Shown: positions 8,438 through 22,110 of the stretch, piece after piece
Layout: each line of letters starts with the position of its first letter
Numbering within the stretch: the first letter of the stretch is position 1
DNA from: Spirochaetota bacterium
GTDB taxonomy: Bacteria; Spirochaetota; Spirochaetia; Treponematales; UBA12059
DNA: 37,344 nt
NCBI GenBank assembly: GCA_018816345.1
Contig: JAHIWG010000154.1
Span: 1-37,344 of the forward strand
Reading direction: 5' to 3'
Translations under genes and position numbers: made by a program
Notes under the pieces: model-generated
What the model was told of the DNA's origin: nothing
The model's input: only the letters and a program-made list of their open reading frames with translations
Databases searched by the model: none

Positions 8438-8611
8438 TCTCGTTTCCTTTCGCGCGATCGGGCTCGCTTAAGCGACGCCGGAGCGCGCACTCTCGTCTTT
8501 CGGCGCTACGAGGCGCCGTCGGCGCGGGCCCCAAAGGCGGCTGGCACTCGAATCGCTATAAACATATCGCGAAATCGCTAGAAAACAAGGACCGCGCGGC
8601 AAATTACGGCG

Positions 8612-9487
8612 CTAGGCCCAGCGCCGCTCCTCCTGGAAGGCCCGGTCGCGGACGGAGCGGGCGTAGGTTGACGGCGGCGACAGCCTGACCTTCTTATAGA
8701 TGCGGGAGAAATAGAGGGAATCCTCGAAGCCGACCGCCTGGGCCGCTTCCTGGATCGATTCCGCGGGGTCCCTGGCGACGAGGCTCTCGAACTTCTGTAT
8801 CTTCTTGAGGGTCGCAAGCTGCTTGAACGAGATGCCAAGCTGGCGCTTGACGGCGTGGGAGACCGCCGACGGGCATCGGTTGACGGCGTCCGCTACGACG
8901 ACGAGGTCGGCCGGTTCCGCCATGTGCTCGTCCAGCCACGCGAGCACGAGCTCTACGAGGTGGGTCCGCCTGACACGGACGTAATCCCTGGAGACGATGA
9001 ACGACACCATCATCGAGAACAGGTTCAGGATATTGCCGAGCGCGGCCTCGTCGTAGTACGGCTGCTCCATATAGGCCGAGGTCAGCTCGGCCGGGTCGAA
9101 TTTTGCCTTGGCCCAATCGGCGAGCATATCCTGCGGCATGACGGTGGCCGTGCGGAACTGCCCGAGCATGGCGTAGCCTATCAGGGCGCCGTCTATCTCG
9201 AGGGGGAGCACGGCCTCGGACAATCCGGCGTGACAGCGGTATATAGTCAGCCGACGCCGACGCGCGCATCGCTCGCACATCAGCTTGTCCTGCCTGCAGC
9301 ACCGGTACCTGACCTGCAGTCCCTTCTGGACTATGCGGCAGTAGCGGGACCCCGGATTCTGCAGGCCCACGATGAGCTCCTCCATCTCGGGGGAGAACAC
9401 GGTGATCTTCACCCTGAAGCAATAGGCGAAACTGTCTATGAGGCGCTGCACCTCGGGATCGAAGAACAGTCCAAGTTTTCCGGGCAT
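8612..9487 (-). CDS. PocR-domain AraC-family transcriptional regulator
   Basis: A 291-residue regulator. The N-terminal half is a PocR ligand-sensing domain: LGLFFDPEVQRLIDSFAY, several cysteines (CRIVQ, CCRQDKLMCERC), then YRCHAGLSEAVLPLEIDG and a GQFRT segment. The C-terminal 100 residues carry two AraC HTH motifs (ADAVNRCPSAVSHAVKRQLG; AAQAVGFEDSLYFSRIYKKV). The frame is open to 9604. MPGKLGLF at 9487 is chosen because PocR alignments start there, and CGGACA-N17-TATATG lies just upstream and would be inside the gene otherwise. No strong SD is visible. It diverges from the carbohydrate operon starting at 9592 and is its probable regulator. The effector is unknown; the cysteine cluster suggests metal or redox sensing is possible. 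Confidence 0.9.
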   Translation of the reverse strand: MPGKLGLFFDPEVQRLIDSFAYCFRVKITVFSPEMEELIVGLQNPGSRYCRIVQKGLQVRYRCCRQDKLMCERCARRRRLTIYRCHAGLSEAVLPLEIDGALIGYAMLGQFRTATVMPQDMLADWAKAKFDPAELTSAYMEQPYYDEAALGNILNLFSMMVSFIVSRDYVRVRRTHLVELVLAWLDEHMAEPADLVVVADAVNRCPSAVSHAVKRQLGISFKQLATLKKIQKFESLVARDPAESIQEAAQAVGFEDSLYFSRIYKKVRLSPPSTYARSVRDRAFQEERRWA

Positions 9488-9519
9488 ACATGACTCTACG
9501 ATCGGAATGCAGATTTGTC

Positions 9520-9548
9520 CATATATTTTCCAGCTTTGACCATGTCCG
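9520..9548 (-). promoter_or_regulatory. Probable promoter of the PocR-AraC gene
   Basis: On the minus strand CGGACA (9543-9548, four of six) is followed by 17 bp and TATATG (9520-9525, five of six). The inferred start near 9513 would leave a short leader before the ATG at 9487. The intergenic region is about 100 bp; no equally good plus-strand promoter was found, which fits an activator-dependent divergent promoter. Confidence 0.5.
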
Positions 9549-9591
9549 GCTTCCCGGTACGGGTCTACGATCTTCATGAGGTGGAAAACGT

Positions 9592-10521
9592 ATGGCAGGA
9601 CCAACGCTCGTCGTCATGGCGGCCGGGATGGGCAGCCGCTACGGCGGCGTCAAGCAGATAGACCGCGTGGGCAGGGCCGGCGAGACGCTGTTGCACTACT
9701 CCGTATACGACGCCGTACTGACCGGCTTCTCCCGCGTAGTCTTCGTCGTGCGCCGCTCGATTGCCGAGGACTTCGAGGAGACCGTGACCGCGCGGCTACC
9801 CGGGTCGATAGACCGGAGGATCGCCTATCAGGAGCTAGACTCGCTCGTGGATCCCGCCTCGGCGGAACGCGCCAGGAACGCCGGGCGGTCCAAGCCCTGG
9901 GGCACGGCCCACGCCGTACTCTGCGCGAGGGAAGAGATACCCGGGCCGTTCGCGGTAATCAACGCCGACGACTTCTACGGGCGAGAGGCCTTCGCCTCCA
10001 TGGCCGCCTTCCTCTCGGGCCCCCGGGCGGCCGGCCCCGGCGGAGAGGCCGCGATAGTGCCGTACCGTCTCGACTCCACCCTGAGCCCCTCGGGCCCGGT
10101 AGCCCGCGGGGTCTGCGGCATCGACGGCGGATACCTTCGAAGCGTAGTCGAGCGCTACTCCATAGAGCGGCGCGGAGACAGGGTCGTCTGCGACTCGGGC
10201 GACGGGCAGGCCATGGAGCTGGCCGGCGGCGCGCCGGTATCGATGAACTTCTGGGGCTTCCCCCGCGCGGCCTTAGGCGGCCTGGCCTCGTACTTCGAGT
10301 CATTCCTAGCGGAGCGTTCCGGAGAGCCCTCGTCCGAGGCCCAGCTCCCGACGGCCGTAGAGGCTCTTACGTCGTCGGCCGGGCTGCGGGTCAGGGCGCT
10401 GGAGCCGGGCCGGGAGTGGTTCGGCATGACCTACCGCGAGGACAGGGAATCCGCGGCCGCGAGGATATCCGAGCTGGTCGCGGCGGGGGTATACCCGTCG
10501 CCCCTATGGGATAACGCGTGA
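9592..10521 (+). CDS. Sugar nucleotidyltransferase (NTP_transferase family)
   Basis: A 309-residue cytoplasmic protein. The N terminus LVVMAAGMGSRYGGVKQ (residues 6-22) is a variant of the GXGTR...PK signature of sugar-1-phosphate nucleotidyltransferases. KPWGTAHAV (101-109) matches the nucleotide-contact loop, and NADDFYG (124-130) holds the metal-binding aspartates. It would join a sugar 1-phosphate to NTP, giving NDP-sugar and pyrophosphate. GAGGTGG lies about 8 bp before the ATG. Its stop overlaps the GTG start of the kinase gene by 4 bp (GTGA), so the two products are made together. Pairing with a NahK-like kinase suggests a hexose or HexNAc substrate; which nucleotide and sugar are not determinable. 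Confidence 0.85.
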   Translation: MAGPTLVVMAAGMGSRYGGVKQIDRVGRAGETLLHYSVYDAVLTGFSRVVFVVRRSIAEDFEETVTARLPGSIDRRIAYQELDSLVDPASAERARNAGRSKPWGTAHAVLCAREEIPGPFAVINADDFYGREAFASMAAFLSGPRAAGPGGEAAIVPYRLDSTLSPSGPVARGVCGIDGGYLRSVVERYSIERRGDRVVCDSGDGQAMELAGGAPVSMNFWGFPRAALGGLASYFESFLAERSGEPSSEAQLPTAVEALTSSAGLRVRALEPGREWFGMTYREDRESAAARISELVAAGVYPSPLWDNA

Positions 10522-14805: not shown

Positions 14806-16875
14806 ATGAGCGTCACGCGCGCGTCGCTGAGCCTGGGCCGTATCGAGCTGGAGGGCTCGCCCGTTGGCGGCCAGAACCCCCTTCCGTTCTACCGAGCCCG
14901 CGATCCAGACCTCCCGGTCGAGGCGACGGCGGGCTTCCCCCCGGGCAAGGTAGAGGGCTTCGGGCGCGACGCCTCGTTCCGCATGCTGCCGTACAAGCGG
15001 CAGGACCGCTACGAGCGGCGGCTAGAGCCGCTATCCCTTCCTATCGCGACGCTCGAGAACGGCTTCCTCCGCGCCAGGGTCGTCCCGTCGCTCGGGGGAA
15101 GGGTCTGGTCGCTCTTCGACAAGAGGGCCGGCCGCGACATAGTCTACAGGAACCCGCTACTCAGGCCGGCCAACCTGGCCATACGCGACGCCTGGTTCTC
15201 CGGCGGGATAGAGTGGAACGTCGGCCGCCTAGGGCACTCGCCCCATACCTGCTCGCCGGTGTTCTCGGGCGCCTTCGAGGACGCGGACGGCGTTCCCGTC
15301 CTCAGGCTCTGGGAATTCGAGCGCCAGAGCCGCCTCTACTGGAGCGTCGAGCTCAGGCTGCCCGAGGACTCGGCCGTCCTCCTCGCCTACGTCCGCGTCC
15401 TCAACCCGTACGCCGTCTCGAAGCCGCTCTACTGGTGGACCAATACCGCCGTGCCGGAGACCGACGGCGTCCGCGTCCTGGCAGCGGGCGACGAGGCCAT
15501 CTACATAGAGCCGGGCGAGGGCCCGGTCAAGCGCATGGGAGGCGGCCGCCTGCCGGAGCTGCCGCCCTTGCCGGGCCGGGACATCAGCTACCCGTCCCAT
15601 TCCGATTACTCTAACGAGTACTTCGTCCAATGCGAGGGTAACGCGCGCGACGGCAGGGCCTATCCGTGGGAGGCCGCCGTCTACGAGGACGGGCGCGCCT
15701 TCGTAGAGGCGTCCACGGCGCCCCTGTCGTTCCGCAAGATGTTCTGCTGGGGACGCGGCCCGGGCGGCCGGAGATGGCAGGATTACCTCTCCGCGCCCGG
15801 GGAACGCTACCTTGAGGTTCAGGCGGGCCTCGCGCCTACCCAATTGCATCTCTCCGGCATAGGACCGGGGGAGACCGTCGACTGGGTCCAGGCCTTCGGC
15901 GCGGCGGACGTCGACGCGGGAAAGGCGCGCGCCCGCTCGTACCGGGCCGCCGCCGAGTACATGGAAGCCGAGGTCGCCAATCTCGCCGGCCCTTCGTACC
16001 TAGAAGAGTGGCTATGCCGGGCCAGAGCCGACGCCGGGCGCGGCTGCGACCGTATCCTCAGCCTCGGTTCCGGTTGGGGCGCTATCGAGTCGCTGCGGCA
16101 TGGCCTCGCCGGACGGCCCGCGATTCCCGGGCTGTCCTTCCCCCGCGAGTCGATAGGAGACGAGGAGGCCCCTTGGCTCGGGCTTCTCGAGACCGGGAGC
16201 CTGCCTCCCCGGGAGGCCGCCCAAGGCCCGTGCGGCTTCTGCGTCGGAGAAGACTGGGAGCGCCTGCTCGAGGCGTCGGAACAGCGGGGAGGCTCGCCGA
16301 CGCCGTGGCTCGCGCCCTACCTGATAGGCGTCTCGGCAAGGGAGCGGGGCGATTCCGCCAAGGCCGCGGAAGCCTGGAGCCGCTCGCTGGCCGCCGGGCG
16401 TAACGCCTGGGCCCTCCGCGAGCTGGCCCTTGCCGCCCGCGAGGCCGGAAGGATAAGCGATGCGCTCGGGCTGTACCGCGAGGCCTTCGCGCTTCCCGAG
16501 GGAGCGGGCGACCAGGCCCTGGCGGAGGAATACCTGCCTCTGCTCCTGGAAGCGGATCGTTACGACGAAGCGTCGGCCATCCTCGCCCGGCTACCCGCCT
16601 CGTTCAAGATAGGAGCCCTCAGGGAGGCGGCCGCCAGGATAGCCTTCCGCCTGGGAGACGAGCGGGAGCTGGATCGGCTGCTGTCCGAGGAGCCGGCGCG
16701 CGTACGGGAAGGAAGCACGGCCCTGACGGAGCTATGGGCCGAGCGGGAAGCCGGGCGGATCGTAGCCGACGGCGCGGATATCGCCGAGGCCCGGGCTAGG
16801 ATAGCCGAGGCCCTCGAGCGCGGCGACCTCGCCCCGCCCCGGGCCATAGACTTCAGGATGTTCGCCAGGAAGTGA
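14806..16875 (+). CDS. DUF5107 protein with C-terminal TPR-like region
   Basis: A 689-residue protein with no signal peptide, so probably cytoplasmic. Residues about 80-380 match the DUF5107 pattern: LENGFLRARVVPSLGGRVWSL, then GGIEWNVGRLGHSP, RLYWSVELRLPEDS and YWWTNTAVPETDGVRVL. This beta-sandwich domain resembles galactose mutarotase-like folds. The last 250 residues are alanine/leucine-rich helix pairs (SAKAAEAWSRSLAAGRNAWA, AGRISDALGLYREAFALP) consistent with tetratricopeptide-like repeats, the usual partner of DUF5107. Biochemical function is unknown; a sugar-binding or carbohydrate-active role fits its place at the end of an importer/kinase operon. GGGA precedes the ATG. A hairpin palindrome spans its stop codon. 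Confidence 0.82.
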   Translation: MSVTRASLSLGRIELEGSPVGGQNPLPFYRARDPDLPVEATAGFPPGKVEGFGRDASFRMLPYKRQDRYERRLEPLSLPIATLENGFLRARVVPSLGGRVWSLFDKRAGRDIVYRNPLLRPANLAIRDAWFSGGIEWNVGRLGHSPHTCSPVFSGAFEDADGVPVLRLWEFERQSRLYWSVELRLPEDSAVLLAYVRVLNPYAVSKPLYWWTNTAVPETDGVRVLAAGDEAIYIEPGEGPVKRMGGGRLPELPPLPGRDISYPSHSDYSNEYFVQCEGNARDGRAYPWEAAVYEDGRAFVEASTAPLSFRKMFCWGRGPGGRRWQDYLSAPGERYLEVQAGLAPTQLHLSGIGPGETVDWVQAFGAADVDAGKARARSYRAAAEYMEAEVANLAGPSYLEEWLCRARADAGRGCDRILSLGSGWGAIESLRHGLAGRPAIPGLSFPRESIGDEEAPWLGLLETGSLPPREAAQGPCGFCVGEDWERLLEASEQRGGSPTPWLAPYLIGVSARERGDSAKAAEAWSRSLAAGRNAWALRELALAAREAGRISDALGLYREAFALPEGAGDQALAEEYLPLLLEADRYDEASAILARLPASFKIGALREAAARIAFRLGDERELDRLLSEEPARVREGSTALTELWAEREAGRIVADGADIAEARARIAEALERGDLAPPRAIDFRMFARK

Positions 16876-16905: not shown

Positions 16906-17616
16906 TCAGTCGAGCGATATCCCCTCGCAGAGCTCGAAGGCCTTGGCCAGCGACGCCCGGTACTCCGCCTCCGGTATGGGAATATCCGGGAGGACCGCGT
17001 GCCGGAAGAAATAATCGGTCGCCTCGAACAGGCTGAACCCGAGTATCCCGTTCACTATCGCCTTGAAGATAGACTTCGCCTGGGCGTTGGTCGTGACGAT
17101 GAACGCTGACAGCTCGTCATCGGATAGGGTCTTGCCGTACTCCGAGGCCAGGCCCTTCGTGGCCTTATAGGTCGTTCTCTTGAGGCGCTCCATATTGGCG
17201 GCGTCGTAATCGGCGTAATTGACGAGATCGTAATAGACCGCGTGGGTGGCCTTATTGAGGGCGATGAAGCGGAAGAGGAGGATGTATTCTACGAAGACGC
17301 CGAGGATGACGGGATTCAGCCTCTCGCCGGCGCCGGCGTCGGCCTCGGCGCCGGCCTCGGCGTCGGCCTCGGCGTCGGCGGCCAGGCCGGCCAAGACCCT
17401 GTCGGCGGCGGCGTAGATGAGGTCGGCGTACGAGTCGAACAGGGCCCTGGCCGCCTTCTCCTTGTCGTCGAAGTAATAGTAGAACGAGGCCCGGCCGATG
17501 CCCGCCGCCTGCGCTATATCGCCTATCCCCGTCTCGTAGTATCCGCGTTCCGAGAACAGCTCGGCGGCGGCATTCAGGATCCTATCCCGAGTCTCGCCGC
17601 TCTTCTTATACGCCAT
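16906..17616 (-). CDS. TetR-family regulator with Ala/Asp/Glu repeat insert
   Basis: A 236-residue repressor. The N-terminal HTH is standard: RDRILNAAAELFSERGYYET, then IGDIAQAAGIGRASFYYYFDDKEKAA. The effector-binding domain follows without clear family. Between them, residues about 79-97 form a low-complexity Ala-Asp/Glu run encoded by four 12-bp repeats (17335-17382), which probably forms a flexible or helical linker. GGAGG precedes the ATG. It diverges from the amidohydrolase operon; two matching pseudo-palindromes flank that operon's promoter and are its likely operators. The natural inducer is probably the imported amide substrate or its product (inference). Confidence 0.9.
   Translation of the reverse strand: MAYKKSGETRDRILNAAAELFSERGYYETGIGDIAQAAGIGRASFYYYFDDKEKAARALFDSYADLIYAAADRVLAGLAADAEADAEAGAEADAGAGERLNPVILGVFVEYILLFRFIALNKATHAVYYDLVNYADYDAANMERLKRTTYKATKGLASEYGKTLSDDELSAFIVTTNAQAKSIFKAIVNGILGFSLFEATDYFFRHAVLPDIPIPEAEYRASLAKAFELCEGISLD
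17335..17382. repeat. 12-bp tandem repeat, four units, inside the TetR gene
   Basis: Units GGCGTCGGCCTC (17335-17346), GGCGCCGGCCTC (17347-17358), GGCGTCGGCCTC (17359-17370) and GGCGTCGGCGGC (17371-17382). Each unit encodes four residues on the minus strand (EADA-like), so unit gain or loss would keep the frame and only change linker length. Confidence 0.85.
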
Positions 17617-17651: not shown

Positions 17652-17673
17652 AATTTCGACACGCGTTAAATTT
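17652..17673. promoter_or_regulatory. Putative TetR operator, copy 1
   Basis: The 22-bp site fits AATTT-NN-ACAY-GYGT-NN-AAATT as an imperfect dyad (AATTT at left, ACACGCGT core, AAATTT at right). It lies just upstream of the -35 at 17677. The same pattern recurs at 17714, 62 bp away, about six helical turns. Confidence 0.65.
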
Positions 17674-17676
17674 AGT

Positions 17677-17705
17677 TTGACACCTCTAGGAGGCGGATGT
17701 ACAAT
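17677..17705 (+). promoter_or_regulatory. Near-consensus sigma-70 promoter of the amidohydrolase operon
   Basis: TTGACA (17677-17682) and TACAAT (17700-17705) are separated by exactly 17 bp, matching consensus at 11 of 12 positions. Transcription would start near 17712, about 110 nt before the ATG at 17823. Operator copy 1 is immediately upstream of the -35 and copy 2 covers the start region. Confidence 0.8.
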
Positions 17706-17713
17706 CGGCCTGT

Positions 17714-17735
17714 AATTTAGACATGTGTTCAAATT
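17714..17735. promoter_or_regulatory. Putative TetR operator, copy 2
   Basis: AATTT, ACATGTGT core and AAATT form a better dyad than copy 1: all five outer pairs match. The site begins at the inferred transcription start, where bound repressor would block initiation or escape. Confidence 0.7.
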
Positions 17736-17822
17736 AATCTATCCGCGTACGAGCAAGTATCCTTCGCTAGCTCGTCGCTGTCAATCTCGAGCCGTAGGGC
17801 TATGCAAGGGGGGCGTTATCGT

Positions 17823-19277
17823 ATGGATACATACGGGATCGTAAGCGGGAGCGTCGGCAGGAACGGGGCGACGCTCGCGAGGCTCAGCGACGAAATCTGG
17901 GCGTACGCCGAGACGGGTTTCGAGGAGCGGCGTTCGGCCGCGGCGCTGGCCGCCGCGCTACAGGCGGAGGGCTTCTCCATAGAACGCGGCGTCGCCGGGA
18001 TGGAGACGGCCTTCGTCGCCTCCTACGGCTCGGGGAGCCCCGTCGTGGCTCTCCTAGGCGAGTACGACGCGCTGCCCTCGATGTCCCAGGAGGCCGCGCG
18101 CCCGGAGAGGCGGGAGTCGTCCCCTGGCGCCAACGGGCACGGCTGCGGGCATAACCTGCTCGGAGTCGGGTCGCTCGCCGCGGCCATCGCCGCGAAGGAT
18201 TTCCTCGAGGCGACGAGGACGGCCGGTACTATACGCTACTACGGCTGCCCCGGCGAGGAGTTCGGCTGCGGCAAGACCTTCATGACGCGCGCCGGCCTCT
18301 TCGGCGACGTCGACCTGGCGCTTACCTGGCATCCTAGCGACGTAAACGCGGTATGGCAGGCCAGGTCCTTGGCCAACCTCTCGGTCTACTTCAGGTTCGA
18401 GGGCAAGGCGTCCCACGCCGCCGCGGCGCCTCACCTTGGCCGCAGCGCCCTGGACGCCGTCGAGCTCATGAACGTCGGCGCCAACTACCTCAGGGAACAT
18501 GTCGTGCCCGAGGCGCGGTTCCATTACGCCGTGACCAACCCCGGCGGCCGCGCGCCCAACGTGGTGCAGGCGGCGGCCGAGTCGTTCTACTACTGCCGCG
18601 CGCCGCGCCTGGACCAGGCCCGCGAGGTCTACGAGCGGCTCTGCGACGTGGCCCGGGGAGCCGCCCTGATGACCGGCACCAGGATGGAGATAGCCTTCTC
18701 GCAGGGCCTCTCCGACTACGTGCCGAACCTCGTCGCCGGGGAGCTCCTGCAGCGCTGCATGGAGGAGGCGGGCGCGCCGGCCTTCGACGCAGCGGACCGG
18801 GAGCTGGCCGGGAAATTCCGCGCCACCCTGACCCGGGCGGAGATAGCGACCGCCATGGGCCAGCTCAGGGCGACGCAGGGACCCTCCGTCGTGGAGGCCA
18901 TCGGCGAGGATCCGCTGGACGCCGTGATCGGGCCGCTGTTCCGCGGGGACGCCTGCCTGCCCGGCTCGACGGACGTCGGCGACGTGAGCCAGGTCGTGCC
19001 CACGGGCCAGCTGGTCTACGCCTCGGCTGCCCTGGGGACCCAGGCGCATTCTTGGCAGAACGCCGCCCAGGCGGGCTCCCCGATAGGACATAAGGCTATG
19101 CTGGCCGCCGGCCGCGCGCTCGGCCTGGCCGCCGCGGAGGTATTCCTCGATCCAGGCATAGCGGAGCGCGCCAAGGCGGAGCACGCCGCCAAGGTAGGCC
19201 CGTATTCCTGTCCCATCCCCGACGCGATCGGCCCTGAGGACGTCCTCAAGGCGATGCGTAGCGGCAACGCCTTATAG
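17823..19277 (+). CDS. AbgB-like M20 amidohydrolase
   Basis: A 484-residue zinc hydrolase of the M20 family, closest in layout to p-aminobenzoyl-glutamate hydrolase subunit B. EIWAYAETGFEE opens the catalytic domain. The metal-binding motifs are GEYDALP (about 79-85), HGCGHN (106-111), GCPGEEFGCGK (about 142-152) and WHPSD. The dimerisation domain contains GKASHAAAAPHLGRSALDAV, and STDVGDVSQVVP near the end is a characteristic late motif. These enzymes cleave N-acyl amino acids or dipeptide-like amides. The frame opens at 17802, but AAGGGGGG ahead of the ATG at 17823 is the better initiation site. First gene of the TetR-controlled operon, followed 25 bp later by the DUF5058 gene. Substrate unknown. 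Confidence 0.88.
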   Translation: MDTYGIVSGSVGRNGATLARLSDEIWAYAETGFEERRSAAALAAALQAEGFSIERGVAGMETAFVASYGSGSPVVALLGEYDALPSMSQEAARPERRESSPGANGHGCGHNLLGVGSLAAAIAAKDFLEATRTAGTIRYYGCPGEEFGCGKTFMTRAGLFGDVDLALTWHPSDVNAVWQARSLANLSVYFRFEGKASHAAAAPHLGRSALDAVELMNVGANYLREHVVPEARFHYAVTNPGGRAPNVVQAAAESFYYCRAPRLDQAREVYERLCDVARGAALMTGTRMEIAFSQGLSDYVPNLVAGELLQRCMEEAGAPAFDAADRELAGKFRATLTRAEIATAMGQLRATQGPSVVEAIGEDPLDAVIGPLFRGDACLPGSTDVGDVSQVVPTGQLVYASAALGTQAHSWQNAAQAGSPIGHKAMLAAGRALGLAAAEVFLDPGIAERAKAEHAAKVGPYSCPIPDAIGPEDVLKAMRSGNAL

Positions 19278-19302
19278 TCTATCGGTTTCTAAGGAGGCAA
19301 AC

Positions 19303-20019
19303 GTGGAATTCTTCGATGTAGCCAACGGAAGCTTGCTCTTCGTACTCGTCGGGGCGGGCATCGCGTACGTCATGGTCCAATGCGCGCTGTTCATGAGGAT
19401 ATCGCTCAAGCGCGCCAGGGAGCTCGGCATCGACGGGAAGGTGATATCCAATACCGTCAAGTCGTCGATAGTCTTCACAATCGCGCCCTCGATAGCCGTG
19501 GCGCTCGGGCTGGCCGCTATGGCGCCGAGCCTCGGGATAGCCTGGCCGTGGTTCAGGCTGTCCGTCATAGGAAGCGTAAGCTACGAGCTCATGGCCGCGA
19601 ACATGGCCACGAGCGCCCTAGGCTTCGCCAAGCTCGCGGACGCGGCCAAGGCCGGCGCCGAGCCCCTCGGGGCGATCATGTACGCCATGACGGGAGGACT
19701 GGCCGGAGCGATAATCCTCGACATCATATTCATAAAGAAGGTGGACTCGCTCGCCGTCAGGCTCAAGACCAAGGCGGGCGATTTCGGCGTGGTCGCCATC
19801 GGCGTCCTGTTCTTCGCGGTGCTCGCGGTATTCGTGGTGCCGTTCTTCGGGCAGGGCCTCGTGGCCGTGGCCACGTTCGCGACGAGCGTCGCGCTGACGC
19901 TGGTCCTGGCCTTCATAGCCAAGAAGTTCAGGATAGCCTGGCTAGGCAACTTCATCCTGGCCTTCAGCCTCATCCTGAGCATGTGCTCTTCGGTGCTCTG
20001 GACCGCGTTGGTCAAGTAG
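19303..20019 (+). CDS. DUF5058-family membrane protein
   Basis: A 238-residue integral membrane protein with about seven hydrophobic segments. The N terminus (FDVANGSLLFVLVGAGIAYVM, then MRISLKRARELGI) matches what I recall of the DUF5058 family, which is often encoded next to M20 amidohydrolases. Charged helix pairs (AKLADAAKAG; FIKKVDSLAVRLKTKAGD) lie between helices. Start is GTG at 19303 with a perfect AAGGAGG 5 bp upstream. A second membrane protein starts 9 bp after its stop; the pair looks like two halves of one transporter serving the adjacent hydrolase, as AbgT does for AbgAB. That function is inference; no transport signature is recognisable. Confidence 0.75.
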   Translation: MEFFDVANGSLLFVLVGAGIAYVMVQCALFMRISLKRARELGIDGKVISNTVKSSIVFTIAPSIAVALGLAAMAPSLGIAWPWFRLSVIGSVSYELMAANMATSALGFAKLADAAKAGAEPLGAIMYAMTGGLAGAIILDIIFIKKVDSLAVRLKTKAGDFGVVAIGVLFFAVLAVFVVPFFGQGLVAVATFATSVALTLVLAFIAKKFRIAWLGNFILAFSLILSMCSSVLWTALVK

Positions 20020-20028
20020 GAGGATTCG

Positions 20029-20748
20029 ATGGAAACCAGGGAACATTATTTCAACCGGATCAACAGGTTCGGCAGGATCAGCTTCACGATTTTCTTCGTG
20101 CTGATCTTCACCATACCCACTATCGTATGCGCGGCGTACGACATCTTCCCCGGCCTGGCGACTGTGCTCAAGGCCACCCTCGGGCTCTTCCTCATCCTGA
20201 CCCCCATTGCGGTTTCCGAGATAGTCAGCTTCGTCCCGCTGCTCGGCTCCGGGGCCTCCTACCTTACCTTCGAGACGGGCAACGTCTCCAACATAAAGCT
20301 GCCGTGCGCTATGAACGCGCTCAAGCTGGCGGGAGTCCAGCCGGCCAGCGAGGAGGGCGAGGTACTGTCGACGATCTCGGTGGCCGTTTCCTCGATAGTG
20401 ACGACCGCCGTCATAATACTGGCGGCCCTGCTCCTCGCCCCGCTGGCCCCGGTTTTCGCCGACCCGGCCGTGAAGACCGCGACCGCCAACGTGCTTCCCG
20501 CTCTGTTCGGCGCTCTCATGGTGTCGTTCCTCGCGGGCGGGGACGCGGGGAGCGTGGTGATCAAGGGCCAGTGGAAGGCCATCATCCTGCCCGCCCTCGT
20601 CGTCGCGGTCGTTCACTACCTCGTATTCCCGATAAAGGGCTGGGAGGGAGTCACCATACTCGTGCTGCTGCCCGTGACGATACTCGGGGCCAGGTTCCTC
20701 TATAAGAAGGGCCAGATCACGGTGACGCCAAAGGTCGCCAAGGACTGA
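20029..20748 (+). CDS. Membrane protein, partner of DUF5058 protein
   Basis: A 239-residue integral membrane protein with about seven predicted helices and no signal peptide. The cytoplasmic-looking loop SYLTFETGNVSNIKLPCAMN between helices is the most distinctive segment, and SFLAGGDAGSVVIKGQWKA another. I do not recognise a named family with certainty. Size, topology and tight linkage match the DUF5058 protein just upstream (9-bp gap with GGAGG). The two may form a heteromeric transporter for the substrate of the AbgB-like hydrolase. The C terminus ends in a basic tail (YKKGQITVTPKVAKD). Confidence 0.8.
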   Translation: METREHYFNRINRFGRISFTIFFVLIFTIPTIVCAAYDIFPGLATVLKATLGLFLILTPIAVSEIVSFVPLLGSGASYLTFETGNVSNIKLPCAMNALKLAGVQPASEEGEVLSTISVAVSSIVTTAVIILAALLLAPLAPVFADPAVKTATANVLPALFGALMVSFLAGGDAGSVVIKGQWKAIILPALVVAVVHYLVFPIKGWEGVTILVLLPVTILGARFLYKKGQITVTPKVAKD

Positions 20749-20787: not shown

Positions 20788-22110
20788 ATGGTCGACGCCG
20801 TTGTCAAGCTGGTTTGCGGGCTCTACGCCCTCGCCCACCGTAAAACGTTCCGGGCCGCGCGGCCCCTCGAGGGGAACGCGGCCCATATGGACGCCGACGA
20901 TAGGTACTGGTGGGGTTACAAGTACCTATGGGGCCCCGTCGAGCGGGAGGAGCCGGGCTCGGGCCTCGAGGCCTACTTCGACGGCCAGGACCTCGACTTC
21001 GCGCCGCGCGACGGCTTCGCGGAGACGGCGGGCATGACCCTGTGCGCGGGCGGGGACATCCTGGCCCACGCTGGCCTGAACCCCGGCACGACCGCCTCCC
21101 TATGGGACGACGTCCGCGGCTTCTACTTCTCCGGGGACCTCGCCTACGCCAACCTGGAATCGCCCGTCGCTCCCTCGATGCCGCCGCGCTACCTGCCAGC
21201 GAGCATCATGGAGCATGGAGGCATGAACAACACCGTCGCCATGCTCGAACGCGTCGTCGAGGGGGGCAAGGGGATAGGCTTCTTCTCCACCGCCAACAAC
21301 CATTGCCTAGATATGGGCGAGGCGGGGCTCCTCGAGACGCTCGACGTCCTCGACGAGCGGGGCTACCCGCACGTCGGTACGTCGAGGAGCGCCGCCGAGC
21401 GCGACGCCGTCGCCATGGTCGAGCGCGGCGGCGTGAAGGTGGCCTTCGTCTCGTGGACCTTCAGCCTCAACTGGGGCGTACTGCCCGAGGGACGGGAGTA
21501 CCTCGCCAATTACGCCAGGATCAACAGGCCCGATACCGATATACGGGCCATCGCCGAGCAGGTGGAGGCCGCGAGGGCCTCCGGCGCCGACGCGGTCGTA
21601 GGCCTGTTCCACTGGGGCGCCGAATTCGAGTCCTATCCCGCGCGGAACATGGTCTCGATGGGCCATAGGCTCATGGAGCTGGGCATCGACGTCATCATAG
21701 GCAACCATCCCCACAACGCGCAGCCCATGGAGCGGTACGCGTATACCGACGGGCGGGGGGCTAGGCGCGAGGGGCTCATACTCTACGCCCTGGGCGACCT
21801 CCTCTCCATACACCGGACCCTCCCCGATTCGCGGCTCGGCTGCCTGGCGCGGATCCGCGTCTCGAAGGGCGAGGCGGACGGCGCCAGGAGCGTACGGATC
21901 ACGTCGCTCGAGGTCCTTCCGACCTATCTATACGTCAAGAAGGCTCGCGGGGAATGCGTAGACTATCGCGTGCTCGACTTCAGGAAGCTCGTCGCCGACC
22001 TCCGCGCGGGCCGGGACGGGCTCGGGATAGGATCCGCGGAACGGCGGGAGATATTCCGGCTCGAGGCGCTCATGCGCAGGGTGCTGCGCGCGGCTCTGAG
22101 GGTATCCTGA
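20788..22110 (+). CDS. CapA-family (poly-gamma-glutamate synthesis type) metallophosphatase-fold protein
   Basis: A 440-residue protein of the PGA_cap/CapA family. Its metallophosphatase-like motifs occur in order: LCAGGDILAHAGLNPG (about 86-101), YANLESPV, FSTANNHCLDMG (about 169-180), LFHWGAEFESYP, IIGNHPHNAQPME and LYALGDLLS. No signal peptide is present, unlike membrane-anchored CapA, so it is probably cytoplasmic. GGAGGAGGA precedes the ATG. It lies 39 bp after the second membrane gene, likely in the same TetR-controlled operon. CapA homologues are linked to gamma-glutamyl polymers; with an AbgB-like hydrolase nearby, glutamyl amide metabolism is a reasonable but unproven link. It converges on the response regulator with a 12-bp gap. 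Confidence 0.88.
   Translation: MVDAVVKLVCGLYALAHRKTFRAARPLEGNAAHMDADDRYWWGYKYLWGPVEREEPGSGLEAYFDGQDLDFAPRDGFAETAGMTLCAGGDILAHAGLNPGTTASLWDDVRGFYFSGDLAYANLESPVAPSMPPRYLPASIMEHGGMNNTVAMLERVVEGGKGIGFFSTANNHCLDMGEAGLLETLDVLDERGYPHVGTSRSAAERDAVAMVERGGVKVAFVSWTFSLNWGVLPEGREYLANYARINRPDTDIRAIAEQVEAARASGADAVVGLFHWGAEFESYPARNMVSMGHRLMELGIDVIIGNHPHNAQPMERYAYTDGRGARREGLILYALGDLLSIHRTLPDSRLGCLARIRVSKGEADGARSVRITSLEVLPTYLYVKKARGECVDYRVLDFRKLVADLRAGRDGLGIGSAERREIFRLEALMRRVLRAALRVS

Follow-up and report, generated by a model that had tools for sequence, protein, structure and literature searches.

Organization of the locus

The window analyzed here, by which we mean the whole stretch of DNA, comprises 37,344 nt of contig JAHIWG010000154.1 (assembly GCA_018816345.1, Spirochaetota bacterium). 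On its plus strand a gene for an M20 hydrolase is followed after 25 bp by a gene for a DUF5058 protein and after a further 9 bp by a gene for a second membrane protein, with a Shine-Dalgarno-like GGAGG in both gaps (Table 1). This order had been described in the initial annotation, and both gaps proved exact. The DUF5058 protein, which begins with GTG, is a clear member of PF16481 (170 bits, Pfam cut-off 28.2), while its partner, unrecognized by the initial annotation, remained without a match in sequence searches of Pfam, NCBIfam and PDB. The longest open reading frame of the hydrolase spans 17802–19277; its true start is likely the ATG at 17823, which is preceded by a GGGGGG Shine-Dalgarno sequence and agrees with the starts of relatives.

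A CapA/PGA_cap gene follows the partner gene in all loci of the window's clade (cluster 6) and in none of the other clades, and its product is possibly a fourth member of the operon. A DUF5107/TPR protein is encoded upstream of the regulator gene, at 14806–16875, right behind a sugar-type ABC permease pair.

Table 1. Genes and candidate regulatory elements of the operon region (window coordinates)
Feature	Position	Strand	Remarks
TetR-family regulator	16906..17616	-	TetR_N 3.9e-16; divergent from operon
Candidate operator 1, imperfect palindrome AATTTCGACACGCGTTAAATTT	17652..17673	.	7/11 pairs complementary
Promoter TTGACA-17 bp-TACAAT	17677..17705	+	read from sequence
Candidate operator 2, palindrome TAATTTAGACATGTGTTCAAATTA	17713..17736	.	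9/12 pairs complementary
M20D amidohydrolase, AbgB type	17823..19277	+	TIGR01891 2.9e-75, 253.7 bits (NCBIfam)
DUF5058 membrane subunit	19303..20019	+	PF16481 6.6e-50; predicted 6 spans, N-out
Partner membrane subunit, no named family	20029..20748	+	predicted 6 spans, N-in
CapA/PGA_cap-family protein	20788..22110	+	PF09587 2.4e-48

Candidate regulatory sites

The two palindromes flanking the consensus promoter have the core GACA-N3-GTT in common, and the palindrome score of the second is matched or beaten at 60 of 37,321 positions of the window. Related sequences lie at the same places in four other loci (L004–L007), where TTGACA is also kept; the copy of the second site in L004 is the better palindrome, with 10/12 pairs complementary. 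An orthologue of the TetR protein occupies the same position in these four loci and in L094–L096. A TetR switch had been proposed for this operon, and two conserved palindromes around the promoter speak for it: the divergent TetR protein probably represses the operon via these sites.

The M20 hydrolase

Aligned over 475 aa, the hydrolase shares 44% identity with E. coli AbgB, and the metal-site motifs GHGCGHN, GCPGEE and TWHP are conserved; with AbgA the match is weak and local (28%). Its closest solved relatives are HmrA (3ram) and an Xaa-Arg dipeptidase (PM20D2; 7yh4). Given these nearest relatives, dipeptides are as plausible a substrate as p-aminobenzoyl-glutamate. Across the whole 3.8-Mb genome, M20 matches number 17.

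Co-occurrence of the two membrane proteins

Neither the function nor a partner is named in the Pfam entry PF16481, and none of the papers in the literature collection searched mentions DUF5058 or PF16481. Among 393 Spirochaetota genomes, DUF5058 (above the PF16481 cut-off) and the partner (by its profile) are found in the identical 47. The partner lies immediately downstream of DUF5058 in 66 of 68 loci. One exception is a genome in which the partner is ∼41 kb away, across contig ends (L044, L123); the other is a degenerate copy, interrupted by a stop codon, that adjoins a truncated M19 gene (L099). Pairwise distances within the two families are strongly correlated (r = 0.95 for 43 non-redundant pairs), a value that co-inheritance alone would largely explain. 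Scans of viral contigs for additional relatives found none.

The two proteins are of nearly the same size (238 and 239 aa), both hydrophobic, with about six spans apiece according to hydropathy, and each carries, between its second and third spans, a conserved glycine-rich segment of ∼44 residues. Counted with our own hydropathy-based span limits, the bias of K+R residues predicts an N-out topology for DUF5058 and an N-in topology for the partner, consistently in 44 of 44 non-redundant sequences of each. The two subunits are thus predicted to sit in the membrane in opposite orientations. Their perfect co-occurrence, the invariable order of their genes, the correlation of their divergence and the opposite charge bias together argue for the heteromeric membrane pair suggested at the outset, so that we infer a complex of the two proteins.

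Alignment of DUF5058 with its partner gave a weak in-register match, but 35 of 120 block shuffles scored equally high, so the similarity is not significant and an internal inverted repeat has no backing from sequence. Structure prediction was of low confidence. AlphaFold reached a pLDDT of 39 for both subunits as one fused chain (the genes are in frame and the single TAG between them was read as Q) with a shallow alignment of 8 rows, and 37.5 for the partner alone with 5 rows. PDB profile matches of the membrane subunits, all with E ≥ 0.017, were judged to be due to chance.

Association with amide hydrolases

A gene for a peptidase or amidohydrolase adjoins the pair, in the same orientation, in 52 of 63 loci, or in 35 of the 43 that are left when close copies are removed, the 63 being partly non-independent; farther out, such enzymes occupy only 2 of 460 positions. 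The longest-ORF rule by which neighboring genes were predicted is simple and may hide some of them. Conserved linkage to hydrolases across genomes, the lack of which the initial annotation had listed among three findings that would count against its proposal, is thus clearly present, and it extends over five hydrolase families: 28 of the 52 enzymes are M20D, 21 are PRK08262-like M20, and M19, Amidohydro_1 and Amidohydro_3 are represented by one each. The M19 neighbor is a dipeptidase and the Amidohydro_1 neighbor is related to Xaa-Pro dipeptidase. With such strong conservation, the arrangement of hydrolase, DUF5058 and partner is not due to chance.

The enzyme itself is not constant. On the tree of the pair the hydrolase changes class at least five times and side at least six times, which indicates that the linkage arose anew on several occasions. 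The genome of the window alone carries three pairs, each with a different hydrolase: the AbgB-type M20 in the window, a PRK08262-like M20 on contig C173 and, on contig C34, a D-aminoacylase-type Amidohydro_3 protein.

Eleven of the 63 loci lack an adjacent hydrolase. In a Treponema-like genus (L045–L048; G173, G165, G019, G031) the pair lies 14–29 bp behind gyrB with no hydrolase; several of the genomes have this locus close to an end of the assembled chromosome, and most of them carry a second pair with an M20 or M19 enzyme. In another locus (L091) the slot held elsewhere by the hydrolase is taken by a gene for a 461-aa protein (8468–9853), 3 bp after the partner gene; this protein has a membrane-like N-terminus and no Pfam match.

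These patterns bear on whether the pair transports anything. Enzyme-linked two-subunit membrane proteins need not do so, and, the structure models being of low confidence, the pair might be imagined as a membrane anchor for the hydrolase or as a sensor of its product. We consider this very unlikely: the enzymes found on either side of the same pair belong to five families with several unrelated folds, and it is hard to envisage a membrane protein that docks specifically with every one of them. Pairs without any enzyme exist as well.

Comparison with known systems

In E. coli, AbgT imports PABA-Glu, and the active AbgA/AbgB enzyme is an alpha2beta2 tetramer (PMC5082436). Like the E. coli abg cluster (AbgA-AbgB-AbgT with AbgR), the operon in the window combines an AbgB-type hydrolase with a candidate membrane transporter and a divergent regulator. 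Unlike abg, it contains neither AbgA nor AbgT, the membrane pair stands in the place of AbgT, and the regulator belongs to the TetR family whereas AbgR is of the LysR type. The absence of AbgA and AbgT, as claimed for this DNA before, is true of the window only, since elsewhere in the genome contig C62 carries an operon of AbgT (41% identical to the E. coli protein), an M20 hydrolase and an AbgA-like protein (45%). On contig C59 (L124, G000:C59; 3921–8041) a DcuC-family carrier forms an operon with an Amidohydro_3 protein and an M20 hydrolase. With M20 hydrolases also found behind AbgT and behind a DcuC-family carrier, a transporter appears to be the usual occupant of this slot, and from the repeated coupling of M20 enzymes to transporters of different families we infer that DUF5058 and its partner fill it in the window. 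Both the hydrolase linkage and these precedents favor the earlier suggestion that the pair acts as a transporter in place of AbgT.

A similar gene plan is known from E. coli yjiH-yjiG-iadA, where two small membrane proteins are encoded together with a dipeptidase (the isoaspartyl dipeptidase IadA), although the sizes are 227 and 153 aa there and 238 and 239 aa here. The pair could accordingly be a distant member of a known transporter superfamily, for example of the YjiG/YjiH Gate type, which would be compatible with the explanation preferred below, and a stretch of only 23 columns is indeed common with YjiH. Yet hhalign comparison with YjiH or YjiG gives probabilities of 0.06 to 2.9%, that is, no detectable similarity; neither membrane protein matches PF03806 (AbgT), the partner profile reaching 0.04% probability against AbgT; no Pfam family recurs among the members; and profile searches of PDB found no sequence relatives for either. 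We therefore regard membership in a known superfamily as a somewhat unlikely, though not negligible, possibility.

Antiparallel pairs encoded by adjacent genes have been described for YdgE/YdgF and DUF606 (PMC3962082). As in DUF606 and in YdgE/YdgF and other SMR pairs, the genes studied here are adjacent, encode membrane proteins of similar size and show opposite charge bias. In contrast to SMR pairs and DUF606, which have four or five spans, six are predicted here, and the two subunits are not recognizably homologous.

Proposed function

We think it probable that DUF5058 and its partner form an undescribed two-subunit secondary importer for dipeptides or N-acyl amino acids, standing where E. 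coli has AbgT. The two proteins would be the halves of one importer, probably an antiparallel heterodimer with six spans per half, and would take in small amino-acid amides such as dipeptides and N-acyl amino acids, to be cleaved by the cytoplasmic metallohydrolase encoded next to them. The transporter is retained while the enzyme is exchanged between lineages, and the specificity of use would presumably depend on the enzyme. The window would hold the version with an AbgB-type enzyme, in an operon probably repressed by TetR at two sites flanking the promoter. As to the substrate, the initial annotation named N-acyl-amino-acid or glutamyl amides. This proposal appears too narrow, because M19, PRK08262-like M20 and amidohydrolase neighbors point to a class of substrates wider than that of AbgB, extending to dipeptides and N-acyl amino acids as a whole.

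A broader statement, that the pair represents a new class of secondary transporters, built as an antiparallel heterodimer of unlike six-span subunits and importing dipeptides or N-acyl amino acids in bacteria and haloarchaea with interchangeable hydrolases, can be offered only tentatively. If the pair is an importer, a role would be assigned both to a Pfam domain of unknown function and to a nameless protein family found in spirochaetes, other bacteria and haloarchaea. There would also be a new uptake route for dipeptides or N-acyl amino acids in which the adjacent enzyme hints at the substrate in each lineage. Should the pair be antiparallel, it would be a further example of inverted symmetry, with halves encoded by separate genes that have diverged strongly, and as such of interest for the origin of inverted-repeat transporters.

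Copies outside Spirochaetota and direction of transport

Outside Spirochaetota our evidence comes from plasmid records. The triad of two membrane proteins and a hydrolase recurs in haloarchaea, Paracoccus and Arthrobacter; the records of the haloarchaeal and Paracoccus plasmids label it 'DUF5058 family protein - hypothetical protein - amidohydrolase', and in the Arthrobacter triad the partner is split in two pieces. Plasmids of Vibrio and Paenarthrobacter carry damaged pairs. Several haloarchaeal copies lie at or near genes for glycine cleavage or for lipoate/lipoamide, a neighborhood that fits the use of the released amino acid.

This last observation is relevant to the direction of transport. 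AzlCD and BrnFE are two-subunit amino-acid exporters that relieve dipeptide toxicity, and the pair might likewise export the amino acid freed by the hydrolase. Linkage to hydrolases fits export equally well, and several of the pairs that lack a hydrolase may simply be exporters. However, in E. coli as well as in the genome of the window the transporters that stand beside such enzymes are importers (AbgT, DcuC family), the haloarchaeal copies adjoin glycine catabolism, and a cytoplasmic hydrolase would still need an importer, of which most of these operons encode no other. Export thus seems unlikely to us, and uptake of the amides by the pair is the reading that we prefer. In L040–L043, haloarchaeal plasmid copies, a gene of the TRIC cation channel family often adjoins the pair or lies near it.
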